This document shows, piece after piece, positions 1 through 11,308 of a stretch of 64,000 nt of DNA; within the stretch, counting starts at the first letter, position 1; every line of letters starts with the position of its first letter. The translations under genes and the position numbers were made by a program. The notes beneath the pieces were generated by a model, which worked only from the letters and a program-made list of their open reading frames with translations, searched no databases and was not told the origin of the DNA. Where the stretch lies: positions 1 through 64,000 of the forward strand of contig JANQLT010000057.1 of NCBI GenBank assembly GCA_028280455.1. The letters are read 5' to 3'. This DNA comes from Kiloniellales bacterium (lineage in GTDB: Bacteria > Pseudomonadota > Alphaproteobacteria > Kiloniellales > JAKSDN01).

Positions 1-687
1 CGCCCCTCCACGCAGGTCGTGTTTTGCAGCACGATCGCGAGGCTGCGGGAGGACAGCCTGTCGTCTTTCCATCGCAATGTCGCCATGGCGGAGCACGTCG
101 CCCTGGCCGTCGCCGAGGGGCATGCCGGAGGCCTGATCTTCCTCAGCTCCATCGATGTCTACGGCCGGCCGCCACGGGAGGTCCCTCTGACCGAGCGCTC
201 GCCGATCGATCCTGCCGGCTACTACGGCCTCTCGAAGTTCGTCAGCGAGCGGATCTTGCAAGATAGGCTGGCGGGAAGGCTGCCGCTGGCGATCCTGCGG
301 CTGCCGGGGGTATTCAGCCTCGATGAGGACGACAGCAGCGTGCTCGGCCGGCTGTTCAATCGACTGCGGAGAAACGAGCCCGTCGAGCTGACCAACGACG
401 GACGCCAGCGTCGCAGCTATTTGCACGTTGATGACCTCCACGCGATCATCACGGCGATCCAGAAGGCGCGCTGGTCCGGCTTGCTCAATGTGAGTTCCAC
501 CGGAACGCATAGCATACGGGAGATGACGGAGCAGATGCGTGCGCATTTGGGCTCGACATCGCCTATCGACGGCGTCGGCGGCGGTGACGGTGACTTCGAT
601 CTACAGATGGACAACTCGGCCCTGCGGAGGGAGCTCCCCGATGTGGCGCTCAAGTCGCTGGACGATCGTCTGCGAGCTTGGGGCTGA
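1..687 (+). CDS. NAD-dependent epimerase/dehydratase family protein (5'-truncated by window edge)
   Basis: ORF 19..687 contains extended-SDR motifs (FLSSIDVYG...YYGLSKFVSE, YxxxK); N-terminal Rossmann Gly motif absent, so the gene starts upstream of the window. Confidence 0.8.
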   Translation, partial: RPSTQVVFCSTIARLREDSLSSFHRNVAMAEHVALAVAEGHAGGLIFLSSIDVYGRPPREVPLTERSPIDPAGYYGLSKFVSERILQDRLAGRLPLAILRLPGVFSLDEDDSSVLGRLFNRLRRNEPVELTNDGRQRRSYLHVDDLHAIITAIQKARWSGLLNVSSTGTHSIREMTEQMRAHLGSTSPIDGVGGGDGDFDLQMDNSALRRELPDVALKSLDDRLRAWG

Positions 688-2408: not shown

Positions 2409-3575
2409 TCACAGGGGCAAGGATGGCGGGGCGAGGAACTGCGGCCTATCGCCCAGGTTGAGCCGGCGAGCCACCGCTACGGCGATTTCCGGCGGCATCG
2501 GGATGTAGACGACCCCGCCGGCTGGCACCTCAGCCGGGGCCAGAACGGGACGGCCGCGGTGCTCGGTGCCGATCCGGTCCGGGTGCTCATCGACGAAAAA
2601 GTCGAAGGGCCGGCTGACGGAGTCGTCCAGCCAGGTCGCCGCCAGCGCCGTGCCGAACACGCCGGTGGGGCGCTGATCCGCCGGCCGCTCCGCCCATTCG
2701 ACGAGTTGCGCGAGCCAATGGACGGCTCGGGCCGGCTGCCCCACCTGGCCCGCACGCTTTGGAGCGTCTTCTCGAGGGCCGTTGTCGCTCGCCCGCGCCA
2801 CCACCAGCAACTCCTTGGCAATGGCCCGGTCGCTCGCCTCGACGACGGTGAAGCCCGCGTTGCCGATCAGCTCCCGCAACTGGCCGAGCTGGAAGTGGTG
2901 GCAGTGGTCGGCAACCAGCAGATCGAAGGGATTGGCCCGCCAGTCGGGCACGGCGATCAGCAGCTCTCCGCCCGCCGCCAGTCGCCGGCGAATGCCGTCC
3001 AGCAGCCCGGCCGGCTCCGGCACGTGCTCCAGGACATGGGACAGCGACACGGCGTCGAACAGCCCGTCAACGCCGTCCAGCCCGCCCGAGAAATAGCTCT
3101 CGACATGGGGGATCGTCTCGACGCGTTGGCGGTTCTGCTCGCCAAGATCCGCGCCGGCCAGCCGCCAGGTCGGGCGACGCGCAGACAGGCTGCGCAGCAG
3201 GTGCCCCGTTCCGCAGCCGAAATCCAACCATCTTCTGGGCTTGGAGTCTGCGCCGTGGCCAGTCGCATCGAAAAAGAAGCTCAACAGCAGCTCCGATCGC
3301 GGGGCACTGTTCTCGCCGCTGAAGATCTTCTGCTCGCCGCCGCTTCCTTGATAGTAGAGCTGATAGGACTCGTAGATCGACTGGGCTTCCCGCAGGAACT
3401 CGCTGGTGACCGGTTTCTCGACGGCACCGCAATGGGCGCACTCGGCCAGTCGGCCGCCTGCCGGCCAGGGCCGGGCATCCGACGTGACCCGGCAGAGCCC
3501 CGAGAAACCCTCGACGTCCCGAAGAGCCAGCTCGCCGCACAGCGGGCAAGCGTGCTCGGCTACCTCAGCCATCAC
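2409..3575 (-). CDS. Class I SAM-dependent methyltransferase with N-terminal zinc-ribbon-like CxxC pairs
   Basis: CPLCGE...CAHCGAVEKP and WLDFGCGTGHLLRSL SAM motif; C-methyltransferase-like C-terminal region. Confidence 0.8.
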   Translation of the reverse strand: MMAEVAEHACPLCGELALRDVEGFSGLCRVTSDARPWPAGGRLAECAHCGAVEKPVTSEFLREAQSIYESYQLYYQGSGGEQKIFSGENSAPRSELLLSFFFDATGHGADSKPRRWLDFGCGTGHLLRSLSARRPTWRLAGADLGEQNRQRVETIPHVESYFSGGLDGVDGLFDAVSLSHVLEHVPEPAGLLDGIRRRLAAGGELLIAVPDWRANPFDLLVADHCHHFQLGQLRELIGNAGFTVVEASDRAIAKELLVVARASDNGPREDAPKRAGQVGQPARAVHWLAQLVEWAERPADQRPTGVFGTALAATWLDDSVSRPFDFFVDEHPDRIGTEHRGRPVLAPAEVPAGGVVYIPMPPEIAVAVARRLNLGDRPQFLAPPSLPL

Positions 3576-5382
3576 CCTTGCCTCTGAGCACTATCGCGCC
3601 GACCTGCTCGATGGCACGCTCGATTCTCCGGTAGGTCCGCTCGATGTCTGCCTGCGTGCCGCCGTAAGGGTCTTGGATTTCGATACTCGCACCTGCAGGC
3701 CTGCCAAACTGGCCGAGCAGGAGGACCTTCGGGCCGACATCGGGGAATCTCTCCAGCAACGTCGCCTCGTTTGAGAAGTCCATAACAAAGACGACGTCCG
3801 CCCAGTCGAGCAGGTCTCTCGTCGTGGGCTGGGACCGGTGAGCCGAAAGGTCCAGGCCGAAAGTCCCTGCAGCGGCAATCACCTGGTCGGGACTGGCTCG
3901 CGGCGGCTTGCTTTCCAGGCCCCGCCACAGACCGGAGGACTGAACCTCGTGGTCTTGGCCGCTGTCGTCGACGTGCTTTCGCAGCAGATGCGCCGCGAAG
4001 GGGCTGCGCATTATGTTTCCGAGACAGATGAAGAGAACTCGCTTTCGAGCGGTCGCACCGAGCTTTTCCAGTCGCGGTGCTCGCCCGGCCGCCTGAAGGA
4101 CGCGCCTACGAAGGTGAATTCGGCCCCTTCTCTTGCCCAGTCCGCGATAGAAGCGAATCCTGTCCCTGATGGCTGACGGCAAGAGGTGGTATGCCACCCC
4201 CTTAACAAGAGCCTTCAGGCGATACGCGATCGTGAAGCGGAGCTCATCGAGCGCTGGAACCGGATCCCGCCATGACCATAGGGACGAGCGGACCGGGCGC
4301 AGGAAGTCGAGAAAGAACTGCAGTGTTTCGATTCCGCGATGGGGCCTTTCCAGGCCCTGGTGCGGATCGGCCCAGAGGTTCAGCAGCCGCTCGATGTCTC
4401 CCGAGAGCCAACGCGCCGCCACGCCATAGCGATAGCGACCGGGCGGATTCGGCACCTGGTCATGAGCGAGTTGCCACTCGTAATACGGCACATCGATCCC
4501 CGCATGAGGCGTTAGGAAGATCGAGCCCCAGTAGCGACCGTTGACCTCCATCAACGCAAAGTCTCTCGACTCCGGGTCGTAGCGAAACTCGACCATCGCG
4601 ACGCCCTGCCATGACAGATCACGAAGGAGCGCGACCGCGGCTTCAGCGAGCCGCTTATCCGGCTGCTCCGAGACGGCCGTGACGCTGACCCCGCCGGAAT
4701 AGGGCAGCTCTTTGAGGCGCCGGTGCTGAAACAGGAAAACCGGGTCGCCCCGGTCGATGAACGTGCCTATGCCAACGCCAACACCCTCTATGTACTCCTG
4801 CAGGATAATGTCATCCCAGTGCGTCGGATTGCTCTGCAAGTCACCCAGAGCTTCCTCGGCGGAACGGAGATACTTGACCTTGAAGCTGCTCGCCCCCTTG
4901 CGAACTCTCGGTTTGGAAACGAGGGGATAGGGCAGCTTGCCTCCGAGGAGGGCCGCGGCAGCCTGCGGATCTGCAACCGCCCAGGTTTCAGGCACACGAA
5001 TGCCGCAACGCCGTGCCGATTCGAGCGTCCTTTCCTTGTCCAGCACAGTCTCCACGATCTCTGGCGGAGGACAGCCGATGTAGGTCTTTGGCACCTCGTC
5101 ACGTACGGCGTTCGCAAGCACCATGGCGCCGTCACCGGTGGGAAGCACGCTGTCGACGTTCTCCCGTTCAATGGTCTCCAAGAGAGCGTCCTTGGCTTTC
5201 GCCAGATCCTGGCTCGGAGACGGCAGGCGGACAAACGTCCTAACGGCGCGTGATCGAACGGGCTTCTCGTCATCGGACAGGGAAGCGACGACGACCGGTA
5301 TCTCATGGCGATGGAGAGATCGCGCAATCGTGCAGGCTACCCGAGGGCCAGCGCCTAGAACTAGGGTCGCCTTGTGCCGCAT
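3565..5382 (-). CDS. ATP-grasp domain protein fused to C-terminal low-molecular-weight protein-tyrosine-phosphatase domain
   Basis: 605 aa; ATP-grasp signatures (SKPRVRKGASSFKVKYL, LMEVNGRYWGS) followed by RVLFICLGNIMRSPFAAHLLRK (C-x5-R P-loop) and IEIQDPYGGT (general-acid Asp). Confidence 0.85.
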   Translation of the reverse strand: MRHKATLVLGAGPRVACTIARSLHRHEIPVVVASLSDDEKPVRSRAVRTFVRLPSPSQDLAKAKDALLETIERENVDSVLPTGDGAMVLANAVRDEVPKTYIGCPPPEIVETVLDKERTLESARRCGIRVPETWAVADPQAAAALLGGKLPYPLVSKPRVRKGASSFKVKYLRSAEEALGDLQSNPTHWDDIILQEYIEGVGVGIGTFIDRGDPVFLFQHRRLKELPYSGGVSVTAVSEQPDKRLAEAAVALLRDLSWQGVAMVEFRYDPESRDFALMEVNGRYWGSIFLTPHAGIDVPYYEWQLAHDQVPNPPGRYRYGVAARWLSGDIERLLNLWADPHQGLERPHRGIETLQFFLDFLRPVRSSLWSWRDPVPALDELRFTIAYRLKALVKGVAYHLLPSAIRDRIRFYRGLGKRRGRIHLRRRVLQAAGRAPRLEKLGATARKRVLFICLGNIMRSPFAAHLLRKHVDDSGQDHEVQSSGLWRGLESKPPRASPDQVIAAAGTFGLDLSAHRSQPTTRDLLDWADVVFVMDFSNEATLLERFPDVGPKVLLLGQFGRPAGASIEIQDPYGGTQADIERTYRRIERAIEQVGAIVLRGKGDG

Positions 5383-6491
5383 TTCTCTTCTTGTGAAAGG
5401 TCAGTCCATGGGAATCCGCTATCGACCTGGTGGCGAAACAAGCTCGGGATCTTCGCGTTCCAACAGACCGTTCTCAAATGGCCTTTGCTGACGTCAAAGA
5501 ACGCGCATCGTTTCAAGATCTCCTTGGCTACGGGCTTGTCGAGATCGAAATGCACGCCGAGCCGCGCGTTCATGTTCGCCGTACGCCGGTTCACGACCTG
5601 GTAGCTCGGCTCTACGATCTTGCCGTTGTACCTGAGCTTGTAGTTGAGCGGGCCGTCGTCGGGGAAAGGGTTGCTGGACCCCATGTTCAGCCACTTGTGG
5701 CCATCGGCTTTGGCCCGTCGGACGATCTCGAGCACCAGCGCGGACACGACACGCTTTTTCTGAATCGCAGGGTCGCCGTTCCGCCAGCCGACCAGGCCCC
5801 AACGAAGCGTTCCGTCCTCGTCTTTCGGAATGATGGACCCGCCCACCCATTCGCCATCCAGAAAGGCGCCAAGCGCCCAACTGTCGGTCCAGAGCTGCTT
5901 GGTTTCGGACCGCGCCACGGTGCGGGCCAAGGCACCATGGCGCTTCTGGACGGTCGGCAAGAGCATGGTGTCGTAGAACTCGTCAAAGGCCCGGTCTCCC
6001 GACAGATCCTGAAAGCTGTAGTCGAGCTTGTTGATGTAGCGGAGGTCGTCCCGCGTACCGCGACTCCGAACGATCAGGTCGAAATCGGCCTGGAGATCGA
6101 CGTAGACCTCGACGTACTTCGGCGCGATGTACCATCCCCGCCTCTGGGCAAGGGCGGCCGTTAGGGGATTGAGATCCCACAGCACCAGGTCCACGTTCAG
6201 TCGGCTGCTGCCGCCCAGGACGGGCCAAGTTTGCAGCTTTCCCGCCGGGGACTGCGCCGGCGACTGATCGAAGATCCTTGCAATCCAAGGCGCGGTGAAC
6301 GGTGACTGACCGACAACCAGCACCGAGGCATCGGGCCCACCGTCGTAGAGGGGTCCTTGCCAGCAGGACGCTTCCGCTTGCCAATTGGCGAGCGTCTCCG
6401 TGAGCCCGGCAAAGGACGTCTCTGCAAGAATCAGCACGGGATCAGGGGCCTGCTGCAAGAGCTTGCGGATGGACGCCCTGAGGGCAGTCAT
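5361..6491 (-). CDS. GNAT/FemAB-like acyltransferase
   Basis: 376 aa; GNAT-fold C-terminal half (GGSIIPKDEDGTLRWGLVGW...YKLRYNGKIVEP). Confidence 0.6.
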   Translation of the reverse strand: MTALRASIRKLLQQAPDPVLILAETSFAGLTETLANWQAEASCWQGPLYDGGPDASVLVVGQSPFTAPWIARIFDQSPAQSPAGKLQTWPVLGGSSRLNVDLVLWDLNPLTAALAQRRGWYIAPKYVEVYVDLQADFDLIVRSRGTRDDLRYINKLDYSFQDLSGDRAFDEFYDTMLLPTVQKRHGALARTVARSETKQLWTDSWALGAFLDGEWVGGSIIPKDEDGTLRWGLVGWRNGDPAIQKKRVVSALVLEIVRRAKADGHKWLNMGSSNPFPDDGPLNYKLRYNGKIVEPSYQVVNRRTANMNARLGVHFDLDKPVAKEILKRCAFFDVSKGHLRTVCWNAKIPSLFRHQVDSGFPWTDLSQEEKCGTRRP

Positions 6492-7474
6492 GTCGTTCTC
6501 GGCCTGACATAGTTGTTCAGGAGCGAAATCCCGGACTTCAGGACCCGTGCCGTCGGCGAGTACAGCTCTATCGTCGCGGCCTCTAGAGGAATCGAGTTGA
6601 CCGACTTCGAGAAGCCGGTCTTGAAGCGCTCCACGCCGCCGTCGAGTTCGGCTGTGCCACCGAGATTGAACCAGGTCCTGCCTTCAGCAGCATAAAGAAG
6701 CGCTGCTTCGTGGACGTTGAACACAGGTGCCCCACACTCCATGCCCTCCGGTGACGCGCCTTGGGTGTGATTGTAGACACCGTGGGAGGCCAGAAGGAAA
6801 AGATTCGATGCCAACACTCGGTCCGCGGCGCGCGTTTGGATAAGCTCGCCGGCCCCGCTGGCGAGGAGTGACGAAACCGTCTCCGCCGTTATCCCGCCTC
6901 CAACGGCCTCTCCGTTCCTGGACCGCCGCTCCATCGATGCAGCGATCAGCGAGATGTGAGCTTGGACGGCGTCGGCGCTGGCTGCCCTGTTTGAGGATAG
7001 GCCGGCGCGCCTCGCCTTTGACAGGCTGTGCTTATGGCCTTTGCGCATGCCTGAGAACGGGCTGGGGCCGGACAGATCGAGCGAGTACTCGCGGCGCTGG
7101 TACCGGCTCATCGCATGCCCGAAGTCCGGGATTGCCGTGGCCGGCGAGCCGAAGCTCCCGATGACCAAGCTGGTCACGTTCCGCTCTCGACACCAGGCGC
7201 GCAGGCCGGCCCAGAAGCCGTCCGGGGCTTCAGCGGGGCAGCTTGGGATCTCCAGCGTGCGTCGGACACGACCGCTGCGCAGAAACCCGTAGGCTGAAGC
7301 CGTGACGCCCGGCGCCTGGGCCGCCTCGAACAACCAAGCGCTCTCGCCGCTGCCTTGCCTCCAACGGACGTAGGCGGGCGTCTTGAACGGAGACTCGGGT
7401 GCAGCCTGCGCGACGGCCGCCAGAGCCTGCTCATCCGGGTCTTCGTGGGCGGCAAAGCTCACCACTCTCGTCAA
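6488..7474 (-). CDS. FemAB/GNAT-like acyltransferase
   Basis: 328 aa; SPFKTPAYVRW start, KGHKHSLSKARRAGL and GTAELDGGVERFKTGFSKS, typical of FemAB-like proteins. Confidence 0.65.
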   Translation of the reverse strand: MTRVVSFAAHEDPDEQALAAVAQAAPESPFKTPAYVRWRQGSGESAWLFEAAQAPGVTASAYGFLRSGRVRRTLEIPSCPAEAPDGFWAGLRAWCRERNVTSLVIGSFGSPATAIPDFGHAMSRYQRREYSLDLSGPSPFSGMRKGHKHSLSKARRAGLSSNRAASADAVQAHISLIAASMERRSRNGEAVGGGITAETVSSLLASGAGELIQTRAADRVLASNLFLLASHGVYNHTQGASPEGMECGAPVFNVHEAALLYAAEGRTWFNLGGTAELDGGVERFKTGFSKSVNSIPLEAATIELYSPTARVLKSGISLLNNYVRPRTT

Positions 7475-8652
7475 GCCTCGGCGAGGGTTAGCTCAAGCAT
7501 GTGGGAATCGACAAAGAACTTTGCGGCCCAGTTGAGGTACTGCCATTTCCCGTAGTCGCCATCGATCGGATAGGAGCCGCGAATGCCGCCGCGCTCACCG
7601 TCGGCGCCGTCGAGCCGGAGGGTGCTCCGAACGAAGTAGTTCGCGGCAATGGCGGAATCGAGATAGGCGGTGTCCTTCGTCTCACAGAACAAGATGAGCC
7701 AGGCGTGCGCGATCTGCACATTGCCGGTCAGGCAAGACCAGGAGACAGGTGCCGACCAGTCCGCGGAAAGCCGGCCAGGAAGCGAGCCGTCGGGACGTTG
7801 ACAGGCTCTCAAACGGTCTCCAAGCGTTCGCGCCGCCGAGAGAACATCCGGGGCGCCATTGAACCGATAGGCCTCGAGCAGGCCGCGCAGGAAATAGCCG
7901 AGCGTATGGGTCAGTGGGTGGGCAGGCTGGTCAAGGCAACAGTCATCACACCAGCCATTGTCTCTCATCTTTCCGATTGCCCAGGACACGTTGCGATCCG
8001 CAGCCTCCTGATAGCCGCTGTCCGGTGCCAGGCGGGCAGCCTCATAGAGGCCCCAGGCGACATGTGTCTCGTAGGCCTTCTCGCCCGGTTGGGCGAACGG
8101 GGTCGGAAACTGCCGCCAGCAGCCATCGGGATCCATCGTATCCCGCAACCAGTCGGCGGCCTTCTGCATCGGTTGGCGGTAAGCCTCCCCGAACTCCGAA
8201 GCGCCGCAGGCCAGTCCAATCAGAATCTGCCCCGTGTTGAAGGTGACCGGAACCTTGACCGGGGCATCGATCTTGCCGCCTTGGAAGGCACCGCTGTCGA
8301 ATTGGATTGAAACAAGCCAATCCAACATCCTGCCGGCACGCTCTCGGGCCTCGCCGCTGTTGCGCCAGCGGGCATAGTCGAGCAGCGTCGGCACGATGTA
8401 TCCGGTCGTTTCCGGGTACGAGCTGCTCCAACCGCGAAGCAGGTCGAAGTCCCTCGCGACGCCGCCGTCTCGGCTCGGCGAGTTGTCTTGCGCTCTGAAG
8501 ATCCAAGCGATAGCCGCCTCGATCGCCGCGTCGTGGCTCGGTGCGACAGGCAGCTCGTCAAACTGGTCTTCCCGACGTCTGCGTTTTGCCTCAGGCGGAA
8601 GCTGCAGATACGCGATCGCTTCCCGGACTCTTTGTTTGACTTGGACTAGCAT
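7471..8652 (-). CDS. alpha/alpha-toroid (prenyltransferase/squalene-cyclase-like repeat) protein
   Basis: 393 aa with repeated helical/QW-like motifs (SRDGGVARDFDLL, DPDGCWRQF, RPDGSLPG) and TGYIVPTLLDYAR. Confidence 0.55.
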   Translation of the reverse strand: MLVQVKQRVREAIAYLQLPPEAKRRRREDQFDELPVAPSHDAAIEAAIAWIFRAQDNSPSRDGGVARDFDLLRGWSSSYPETTGYIVPTLLDYARWRNSGEARERAGRMLDWLVSIQFDSGAFQGGKIDAPVKVPVTFNTGQILIGLACGASEFGEAYRQPMQKAADWLRDTMDPDGCWRQFPTPFAQPGEKAYETHVAWGLYEAARLAPDSGYQEAADRNVSWAIGKMRDNGWCDDCCLDQPAHPLTHTLGYFLRGLLEAYRFNGAPDVLSAARTLGDRLRACQRPDGSLPGRLSADWSAPVSWSCLTGNVQIAHAWLILFCETKDTAYLDSAIAANYFVRSTLRLDGADGERGGIRGSYPIDGDYGKWQYLNWAAKFFVDSHMLELTLAEA

Positions 8653-9013: not shown

Positions 9014-9718
9014 TTATGGCTTTGCTCCTGATTCTGCAAGAGCTTCCGCGACCTCGCCATCGGTGAAGCCCGCCGTTCCAAGTCTTGCATAGGCAAAAAG
9101 AACGGGCATTTCGAAATTATCATCCCGTATACTTCTAATAAACACACTAGAGAAGTGCTTCAGCATCAGCTTTTCCAATGTATTTTTGTTGAATTTCGTC
9201 ACGTGGCTGGGCTCGTCGATTGGCCCAAGACAATTGTCCGGGACAAACCCAAGAAAAACGCCGTCCGGTTTTAGGGTGCGACAGATCTCGTTCAGGAAGA
9301 ACCGCCGCCGAACCACATGCTCCAGCACCTGTGAAGCAATCACCGTATCGAACGTGCCATCAGGCGTGGTCAGGTGCGGGAGGCGGCCTTGGTACATGGT
9401 GATCCCATGCTGTCCGAGGACCTCGACCGCCCGCCTGGAAATCTCGAAACCGCTCAGATGTTCATAGCCCTTCGACTTCAGATGAAGGAGCAGCGAACCG
9501 GTCCCGCAGCCGACGTCCAACACCTGAGAGCTGCTCGGGACGAGAAGCTCCACCAGTCGGTTCTTGACGGGCCATTGCCGGCTTCCTTGTCGCCAGCTCA
9601 CGTCGAAAGCGTTGTCCCAATAGGCTTCCGAGTGCCTCGAGAAGCCCCGGTTCACGATGGCGTGGTAAAGAAGAGGGGCCTTCTCGGAGACCAGATTCTT
9701 AACGCGCCATGGAATCAC
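9014..9718 (-). CDS. Class I SAM-dependent methyltransferase
   Basis: VLDVGCGTGSLLLHLKSKGY SAM motif I; SQVLEHV motif. Confidence 0.85.
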   Translation of the reverse strand: MIPWRVKNLVSEKAPLLYHAIVNRGFSRHSEAYWDNAFDVSWRQGSRQWPVKNRLVELLVPSSSQVLDVGCGTGSLLLHLKSKGYEHLSGFEISRRAVEVLGQHGITMYQGRLPHLTTPDGTFDTVIASQVLEHVVRRRFFLNEICRTLKPDGVFLGFVPDNCLGPIDEPSHVTKFNKNTLEKLMLKHFSSVFIRSIRDDNFEMPVLFAYARLGTAGFTDGEVAEALAESGAKP

Positions 9719-9862: not shown

Positions 9863-11308
9863 CTATCCGACAATGACCGATTTGACCAACCTGGGGGCGG
9901 AGCGATCAAGCAGAACCACGACAGACGTGTAGGCGACGACGCCGGCCGCAATCGTGGCCACAAGAGCGAATATGGGTGGCCAAGCTTGAGTAATAAAGAT
10001 CTGGATGCTGGCCGTGACGGCAAGCATCAGCGCGGCGGACACAAGCGGCACGGCCACGATCTTTGCTTGGCTCAGGTATCCGATTTGAGCGCTGCTTTTC
10101 AGCATCGCCGCGGCATAGAGAAGGACGGCCGGGAACGTCACCAGCCACGACACGCAAACGCCCGTAATGCCCCAGCGAATGCCAATGAGGAAACCGAGCG
10201 GAATGACCGTCGTCGCCAGCACGACGCAGCGCAGCACTTTCTCGGGGCTACCCAGACCGTTCATGATCACTGTCATATGGCTGTAAAGCATGCGAAACGG
10301 CAGAATCACCGCGAGAATCTGCATGGGCAGAATGGCTTCGAGCCATTTGTCGCCGAGGATAACCCGGACCGCCGGGTCGGCCACGGCCGCAATGCCCCAG
10401 AACACGGGAAAGGCAAACAAGGCGAGAAGCTTCAGGGCCTTCTGCGCGTAGTTCTGAACGAGCTCCGGCTCGCTCTGGATGCGTGAGTAGGCCGGAAAGC
10501 TCGCCTGGTCGACGATCGCGTTGACGCGAACCATCGGCAGGGACGCGAGCTGCATCGCCACAGCGTAAACGCCTAGCGGGGCCGGCCCCAGCCATCTCCC
10601 GATGATCAGGCTGTCCGCGCTCCAGTAGACGGACGTCAAGATTCGCTGCAGCGTGATGGTGCCGCCGAACCGGACCAAAGGCGCGAGCCCCTCCAGAGAC
10701 ATGAGCGGCAGGAACCGGATCGGCATCGCCACGTTGGTGGCGACGAGGCGTGCTAGGGCCCCACCGATCACGCCGGCGACCAGAGCCCAGACGCCGTATC
10801 CGTTGAACGCGAAATACAAGGTAATGAACCCGGCGGCGAGCCCCGAAACCAAGTCTACAATCGACTTGGCCTTCAGATTCAAATCTCTAATCAACAACGC
10901 CTGCGGCACCACTATGAAAATCGAGATCAAAATCTCGAACGACAAGGCTCGAAGCACCCATGTGATCTTTGGCTCATCGTAAAACCAGGCCGCGGCAGGC
11001 GCAGAAACAAAAAGCAATATGAATATCCCCAAATGAATGCAAATGATTACAAAGAAGACCTTCCTCATCTGCTCCAGCGAAAGCGTCTCCAACTGGATGA
11101 GCGTCGCTGAGAAACCGAATTCCCGAATGTTCGAGACCAGGGTGGTGAACACCACCGCCATGGCCATGAGCCCGTAGTCCTCCGGGGTCAGAATTCGCAC
11201 GACCTGTATGGTTATCAGCCAATTGACCAACTGGACGCCGATTCGCCCCACCGCCGACCATTTGAGGCCGCGCAGCGAGCGAGACTTGATGTCGGTTGGC
11301 GGGGTCAT
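9863..11308 (-). CDS. Lipopolysaccharide/exopolysaccharide flippase (MOP superfamily, Wzx-like)
   Basis: 481 aa polytopic protein; GLKWSAVGRIGVQLVNWLITIQVVRILTPEDYGLMAM start characteristic of the family. Confidence 0.85.
   Translation of the reverse strand: MTPPTDIKSRSLRGLKWSAVGRIGVQLVNWLITIQVVRILTPEDYGLMAMAVVFTTLVSNIREFGFSATLIQLETLSLEQMRKVFFVIICIHLGIFILLFVSAPAAAWFYDEPKITWVLRALSFEILISIFIVVPQALLIRDLNLKAKSIVDLVSGLAAGFITLYFAFNGYGVWALVAGVIGGALARLVATNVAMPIRFLPLMSLEGLAPLVRFGGTITLQRILTSVYWSADSLIIGRWLGPAPLGVYAVAMQLASLPMVRVNAIVDQASFPAYSRIQSEPELVQNYAQKALKLLALFAFPVFWGIAAVADPAVRVILGDKWLEAILPMQILAVILPFRMLYSHMTVIMNGLGSPEKVLRCVVLATTVIPLGFLIGIRWGITGVCVSWLVTFPAVLLYAAAMLKSSAQIGYLSQAKIVAVPLVSAALMLAVTASIQIFITQAWPPIFALVATIAAGVVAYTSVVVLLDRSAPRLVKSVIVG

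Follow-up and report, generated by a model that had tools for sequence, protein, structure and literature searches.

Exopolysaccharides of the XrtA type bind flocs and biofilms together, and to our knowledge little has been described of their decorations. In polysaccharide loci more generally, low-molecular-weight protein-tyrosine phosphatases (LMW-PTPs) classically dephosphorylate tyrosine autokinases, as in the Wzb/Wzc pair. In Rubrivivax gelatinosus, an exopolysaccharide cluster of the XrtA kind includes genes for FemAB and for WbpS-like amidotransferases, and mutants in an amidotransferase gene are altered in both growth mode and colony form (PMC3684757). Here we analyze a five-gene operon (genes A–E) in a stretch of 64,000 nucleotides from a Kiloniellales bacterium (assembly GCA_028280455.1, contig JANQLT010000057.1, positions 1 to 64,000; referred to hereafter as the window), encoding a toroid-like protein (A), a predicted FemAB-like acyltransferase and a probable divergent relative (B and C), a fusion of ATP-grasp and LMW-PTP domains (D) and a methyltransferase (E). 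The locus and XrtA/PEP-CTERM clusters have in common a FemAB-like GNAT, a polysaccharide flippase, glycosyltransferases and amide-forming enzymes; the operon differs in carrying no exosortase, hydrolase 1/2 or PrsK/R/T gene, in that neither B nor C matches the XrtA FemAB model TIGR03019 (or any other NCBIfam model, even at E ≤ 1), and in that neither the fusion nor the toroid matches any NCBIfam equivalog above cut-off. We consider it probable that the encoded enzymes act in the cytoplasm to tailor the repeat unit of an XrtA-type exopolysaccharide or O-antigen-like polymer that is secreted, with export via the adjacent flippase; the substituents that they are predicted to install are probably aminoacyl or acyl groups in amide linkage to uronate sugars.

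The ATP-grasp/LMW-PTP fusion protein D

D combines an ATP-grasp domain (approximately residues 1–390) with a low-molecular-weight phosphatase domain (approximately residues 449–593), recognized by the Pfam ATP-grasp and LMWPc models respectively. Profile comparison identifies the nearest solved or curated relatives of the former as the CPSase-like protein 2pn1, RimK, LysX, cyanophycin synthetase and "carboxylate–amine ligases", and ATP-driven amide formation is therefore the default expectation for D; the bond-forming chemistry that the initial annotation had ascribed to ATP-grasp enzymes is thus matched by placement of this domain among C–N ligases. The N-terminal region most resembles the PRK12767-type CPSase-like ATP-grasp/carboxylate–amine ligases (2pn1 being the closest solved structure), but all NCBIfam scores fall far under cut-off (61 versus 218 bits), and D adds the C-terminal LMW-PTP. 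Likewise, the phosphatase domain has the CX5RS and DP motifs of Wzb-type LMW protein-tyrosine phosphatases and matches the Wzb model, although at 41 bits against a cut-off of 243, and differs from them in its fusion to an ATP-grasp ligase. Openly licensed literature on ATP-grasp proteins in connection with exosortase, FemAB or LMW-PTP yielded nothing relevant to this fusion.

A scan with the first three D homologues, taking one genome per species, returned 80 loci, which together with loci from other searches provided 39 fused D-type open reading frames (ORFs). Alignment of these reveals that the phosphatase residues C453, R459, S460, D571 and P572 (the C453-x5-R459-S460 loop and the D571-P572 pair) are kept in every one, and that K116, K157, E279 and N281 of the ATP-grasp domain are kept in all but one, the missing row being perhaps explained by a short fragment ORF at locus L023. 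We take K116 and K157 to be ATP-binding lysines and E279 and N281 to be metal-binding from knowledge of the superfamily rather than from a solved structure of D. Judged by these residues, both active sites are conserved and intact.

Full-length homologues are present in the Alpha-, Beta- and Gammaproteobacteria, Acidobacteriota, Nitrospirota and Eremiobacterota (carriers of the fusion include Sneathiellales, Acetobacteraceae, Rhodoferax, Thioalkalivibrio, Vibrio and Nitrospira), but a broad survey of the window's own phylum seldom met the fusion, with 6 of 399 genomes matching at E ≤ 1e-60, two of these over the ATP-grasp part alone. In several Acidobacteriota the PTP has a gene to itself, which immediately precedes that for the ATP-grasp protein; a PTP tree groups these split forms with fused acidobacterial PTPs (98/94), from which we take fused and split forms to be one lineage. 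The window's genome also holds a tandem pair of ATP-grasp genes encoding distant D relatives of 421 and 423 aa (L107 7539–10107, on contig C112), with a FemAB-like ORF some 2 kb away on the opposite strand.

Exopolysaccharide neighborhoods and the role of the phosphatase

Homologues of the XrtA system lie within ~10 kb of 18 of 35 distinct fusion loci (36 were scanned, of which L005 and L072 are one locus), counting as markers the hydrolases, AsnB-type amidotransferase, O-ligase, PrsT/K/R and FemAB, with the proviso that the amidotransferase marker may catch ordinary AsnB relatives. Family 2 glycosyltransferase (GT2) genes are found within 10 kb of 23 of the 36. On a Vibrio plasmid the fusion is situated among PrsT, PrsK and PrsR, and the Vibrio-type order of GNAT, flippase, fusion, unannotated protein and GT2 is kept at L166 and L167, recurs at L004 with a flippase replacing the GT2, and has a looser version at L165. 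At 16 of the 39 loci the direct neighbor of the fusion belongs to a family of unannotated proteins without a Pfam match (e.g. L066 3738–4895 and L004 13731–14735); motifs in one member (L005) suggest that it is possibly deacetylase-like. The initial annotation had associated the operon with a surface glycan, an association that this context supports, while the tie to XrtA/PEP-CTERM exopolysaccharide clusters had escaped it.

The window's own genome encodes an exosortase scoring above cut-off (TIGR02602, 211 bits, contig C215, 29140–29847), and the same contig (L110, L112) carries an XrtA tyrosine autokinase, likewise over cut-off, together with amidotransferase, O-ligase and FemAB homologues.

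Several observations weigh against the reading of the operon favored here. This XrtA cluster lies on C215, and an attempted end-overlap join of that contig to C58 or C233 (C58 itself joining C233) found no overlap; XrtA markers are absent from the 10-kb neighborhoods of three fusion loci (L015, L017 and L028); the toroid and the fusion each also occur without the other; and C is only weakly GNAT-like, with a poor structure model (pLDDT 42). Furthermore, no XrtA tyrosine autokinase relative was found in the 10-kb surroundings of the fused loci, leaving a phosphatase–kinase pairing without support from gene neighborhood.

The last of these points bears directly on what the phosphatase of D does. 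Most simply, the LMW-PTP domain would be regulatory and act on the XrtA tyrosine autokinase. A serious rival is that it is metabolic: D would ligate a building block that carries phosphate (a phospho-sugar or a phospho-amino acid, for instance), and the LMW-PTP of the same protein would then take this phosphate off, freeing the product or drawing the reaction toward it. Such a role would fit the lack of a kinase relative near the fusions, the persistence of a PTP fused to, or directly beside, the ligase across phyla, and the presence of three further, stand-alone LMW-PTPs in the window's own genome; the Wzb/Wzc precedent and the conventional signature residues of D argue the other way, and we hold the metabolic role to be unlikely.

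The A–D gene set and the barrel protein A

The initial annotation had treated the five genes as one set, and for A–D this is borne out by homologues that cluster in three other genomes. In a Sneathiellales metagenome-assembled genome (MAG; L009/L100) the four genes run B-C-D-A along a single strand (43, 31, 47 and 56% identity, respectively), followed by genes for exosortase-A hydrolases 1 and 2 (TIGR03100/3101) and an XrtA acyl-CoA ligase (TIGR03098), all above NCBIfam cut-offs; this block forms part of an XrtA cluster. In a Bryobacteraceae MAG (L028), A-B-D occur in this order and are followed by a TylF-like methyltransferase gene; in the third genome, A adjoins B with no D alongside, near a UDP-sugar dehydrogenase gene. 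By this comparison of gene content, A-B-C-D is the conserved core, and the exact form A–E was met only at the window locus.

B is predicted to be a FemAB/Acetyltransf_6 GNAT acyltransferase (Acetyltransf_6, 35.4 bits versus a cut-off of 22; FemAB, 24.4 versus 24); its homologues adjoin D at L009 and L028 and A at L154. C falls below the Acetyltransf_6 cut-off (16.1 bits versus 22, E = 0.013), its C-terminal motif resembles FemAB profiles weakly and its profile comparison with B is also weak, such that it is probably, though not securely, a divergent FemAB/GNAT-like protein; a homologue adjoins D at L009. E is an S-adenosylmethionine (SAM) methyltransferase (Pfam Methyltransf_23) with an N-terminal CxxC...CxxC ribbon. 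None of the related loci compared encodes a close relative of E, which rules E out as a core member and detaches it from the proposed five-gene set; it is best described as an accessory gene. A methyltransferase with a Trm112-like zinc ribbon directly precedes a toroid gene elsewhere (L155 8651–10928), and methyltransferase similarity likewise adjoins toroids at L156 and L158, much as E and A share an operon here.

The variable company of these genes could be taken to mean that each tailors independently of the others and that they are merely gathered in a polysaccharide supercluster, with co-transcription at this locus but no shared pathway: E is not conserved, the toroid often occurs without the fusion, and most fusions occur without toroid or C. 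We regard this as doubtful, given that B-C-D-A are contiguous in a different order at 31–56% identity, that A-B-D recur in another phylum, and that the overlapping frames of A–E suggest coupling.

By sequence, A yields only a sub-cut-off Pfam match to SQHop_cyclase_C. An AlphaFold2 model derived from three sequences (pLDDT 76.5, pTM 0.80) finds as its best solved match in Foldseek the GH88 unsaturated glucuronyl hydrolase 3wiw (TM 0.71/0.75, E 7e-11), with cellobiose 2-epimerases and further (alpha/alpha)6 enzymes next, and on the strength of this model we class A as an (alpha/alpha)6 barrel of carbohydrate type. The "toroid" call of the initial annotation is thereby upheld as to fold type, the carbohydrate-enzyme class of the barrel having been missed. 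GH88/GH105 glucuronyl hydrolases and sugar 2-epimerases share this fold but are only ~15% identical to A, whose family has its own motifs YPETTGY, PLTHTxGY and CLTGxxQ in addition to a conserved NGW. Pfam matches of 14 A relatives are scattered over squalene cyclase, pectate lyase, glucuronyl C5-epimerase, GH127 and GH88 models; the GH88 model itself has no match in the window's A and a weak one in 2 of the 14, placing A outside the GH88 sequence family. Assignment as a squalene/prenyl cyclase was rejected, the matches being below cut-off and spread over (alpha/alpha) families, and the fold search ranking carbohydrate enzymes first. A has no evident signal peptide or transmembrane segment, and most likely works in the cytoplasm on uronate-type substrates, as a sugar epimerase, isomerase or hydrolase.

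Homologues of A share 56% (L009), 54% (G801, the A-B genome), 38% (L028) and 36–37% (haloarchaeal plasmids) identity with it. The haloarchaeal relatives adjoin alginate-lyase-family, sulfatase and nucleotide-sugar dehydrogenase genes, and those in other members of the window's phylum lie next to homologues of the XrtA-type O-ligase and amidotransferase. In other Alphaproteobacteria, A relatives adjoin phosphatidylserine decarboxylase genes (L103 2657–5494; L105 7807–10545), the first of these loci having a CDP-alcohol phosphatidyltransferase gene nearby as well.

That the operon instead makes a small amide-containing metabolite or an aminoacylated lipid, unrelated to polysaccharide, would accord with such lipid-gene neighbors and with the ATP-grasp and GNAT pairs known from peptide and lipid modification, but is improbable with glycosyltransferases, flippases, sulfotransferases and XrtA genes dominating the fusion neighborhoods.

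Operon layout, surroundings and proposed pathway

The five minus-strand ORFs have the coordinates and overlaps first reported for them, successive junctions from A/B to D/E sharing 4, 4, 22 and 11 nt (Table 1); a AAGAAGAG stretch lies immediately 5′ of the D start codon. The recurrence of A–D homologues in a reordered block, together with the strong Pfam methyltransferase match in E, indicates that these are real genes and not artefacts of GC-rich DNA. The domains originally assigned to D, B and E are reproduced by Pfam, while those of C and A were the weaker calls, the latter relying on the structure model. None of the five proteins contains a hydrophobic stretch indicating export or a membrane anchor.

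Table 1. Genes of the operon and its flanks (window coordinates).
Feature	Position	Strand	Details
NAD-dependent sugar epimerase, 3′ part	1–687	plus	cut by contig start
DegT/PseC-like sugar aminotransferase	746–1909	plus	
WbuC-family cupin (O-antigen cluster protein)	1906–2394	plus	TIGR04366, E 3.6e-33, 114 bits versus cut-off 42
E	2409–3575	minus	388 aa, GTG start/TGA stop
D	3565–5382	minus	605 aa, ATG start/TGA stop
C	5361–6491	minus	376 aa, ATG start/TAG stop
B	6488–7474	minus	328 aa, TTG start/TGA stop
A	7471–8652	minus	393 aa, ATG start/TGA stop
Second SAM methyltransferase	9014–9718	minus	234 aa
Wzx/MOP-type polysaccharide flippase	9863–11308	minus	

The surface-glycan surroundings originally described for the operon (epimerase, aminotransferase and flippase) are as reported, include the WbuC cupin and second methyltransferase genes as well, and extend beyond the window. 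Window positions 1–99 are an exact copy of the final 99 bases of contig C58 (34,098 bases), an assembly k-mer join that shows C58 to be the true upstream neighbor of this contig end; the locus accordingly runs on into C58. Joining the two sequences restores the cut epimerase to a complete 305-aa protein, and C58 further encodes HldE-like and SIS-domain proteins, epimerases, a GT2 and an FkbM methyltransferase. An 838-aa ORF of C58 (L123 17054–19567) that closely precedes the epimerase gene is without a Pfam match at E ≤ 0.01, which is either an enzyme of novel type or a chance ORF in GC-rich DNA.

In the tailoring pathway that we favor, the ATP-grasp domain of D would activate a carboxylate as an acyl phosphate and join it to an amine. 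FemAB-like B, and probably C too, would transfer the aminoacyl/acyl product, or a different group of that kind, to the lipid-linked unit at an amino or uronic sugar, a step preceding the flippase. Barrel A would epimerize or trim a uronate-type sugar, and E would add an optional methyl group. The phosphatase of D would either set export or chain length through dephosphorylation of the XrtA tyrosine autokinase, or strip phosphate off a pathway intermediate. The amide-linked surface-glycan decoration suggested in the initial annotation is a plausible proposal, partly backed by context.

A bolder and rather speculative extension is that D and its split relatives constitute an undescribed bifunctional family, in which carboxylate–amine ligase and phosphatase act on the same glycan-building intermediate, and which with A, B and C would form a pathway devoted to an exopolysaccharide substituent in amide linkage, a pathway that has spread between phyla. 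The ligase–phosphatase fusion and its partner acyltransferases offer a concrete, testable candidate for the making of one exopolysaccharide substituent, and would help to account for the joining of a regulatory-looking phosphatase to a ligase.

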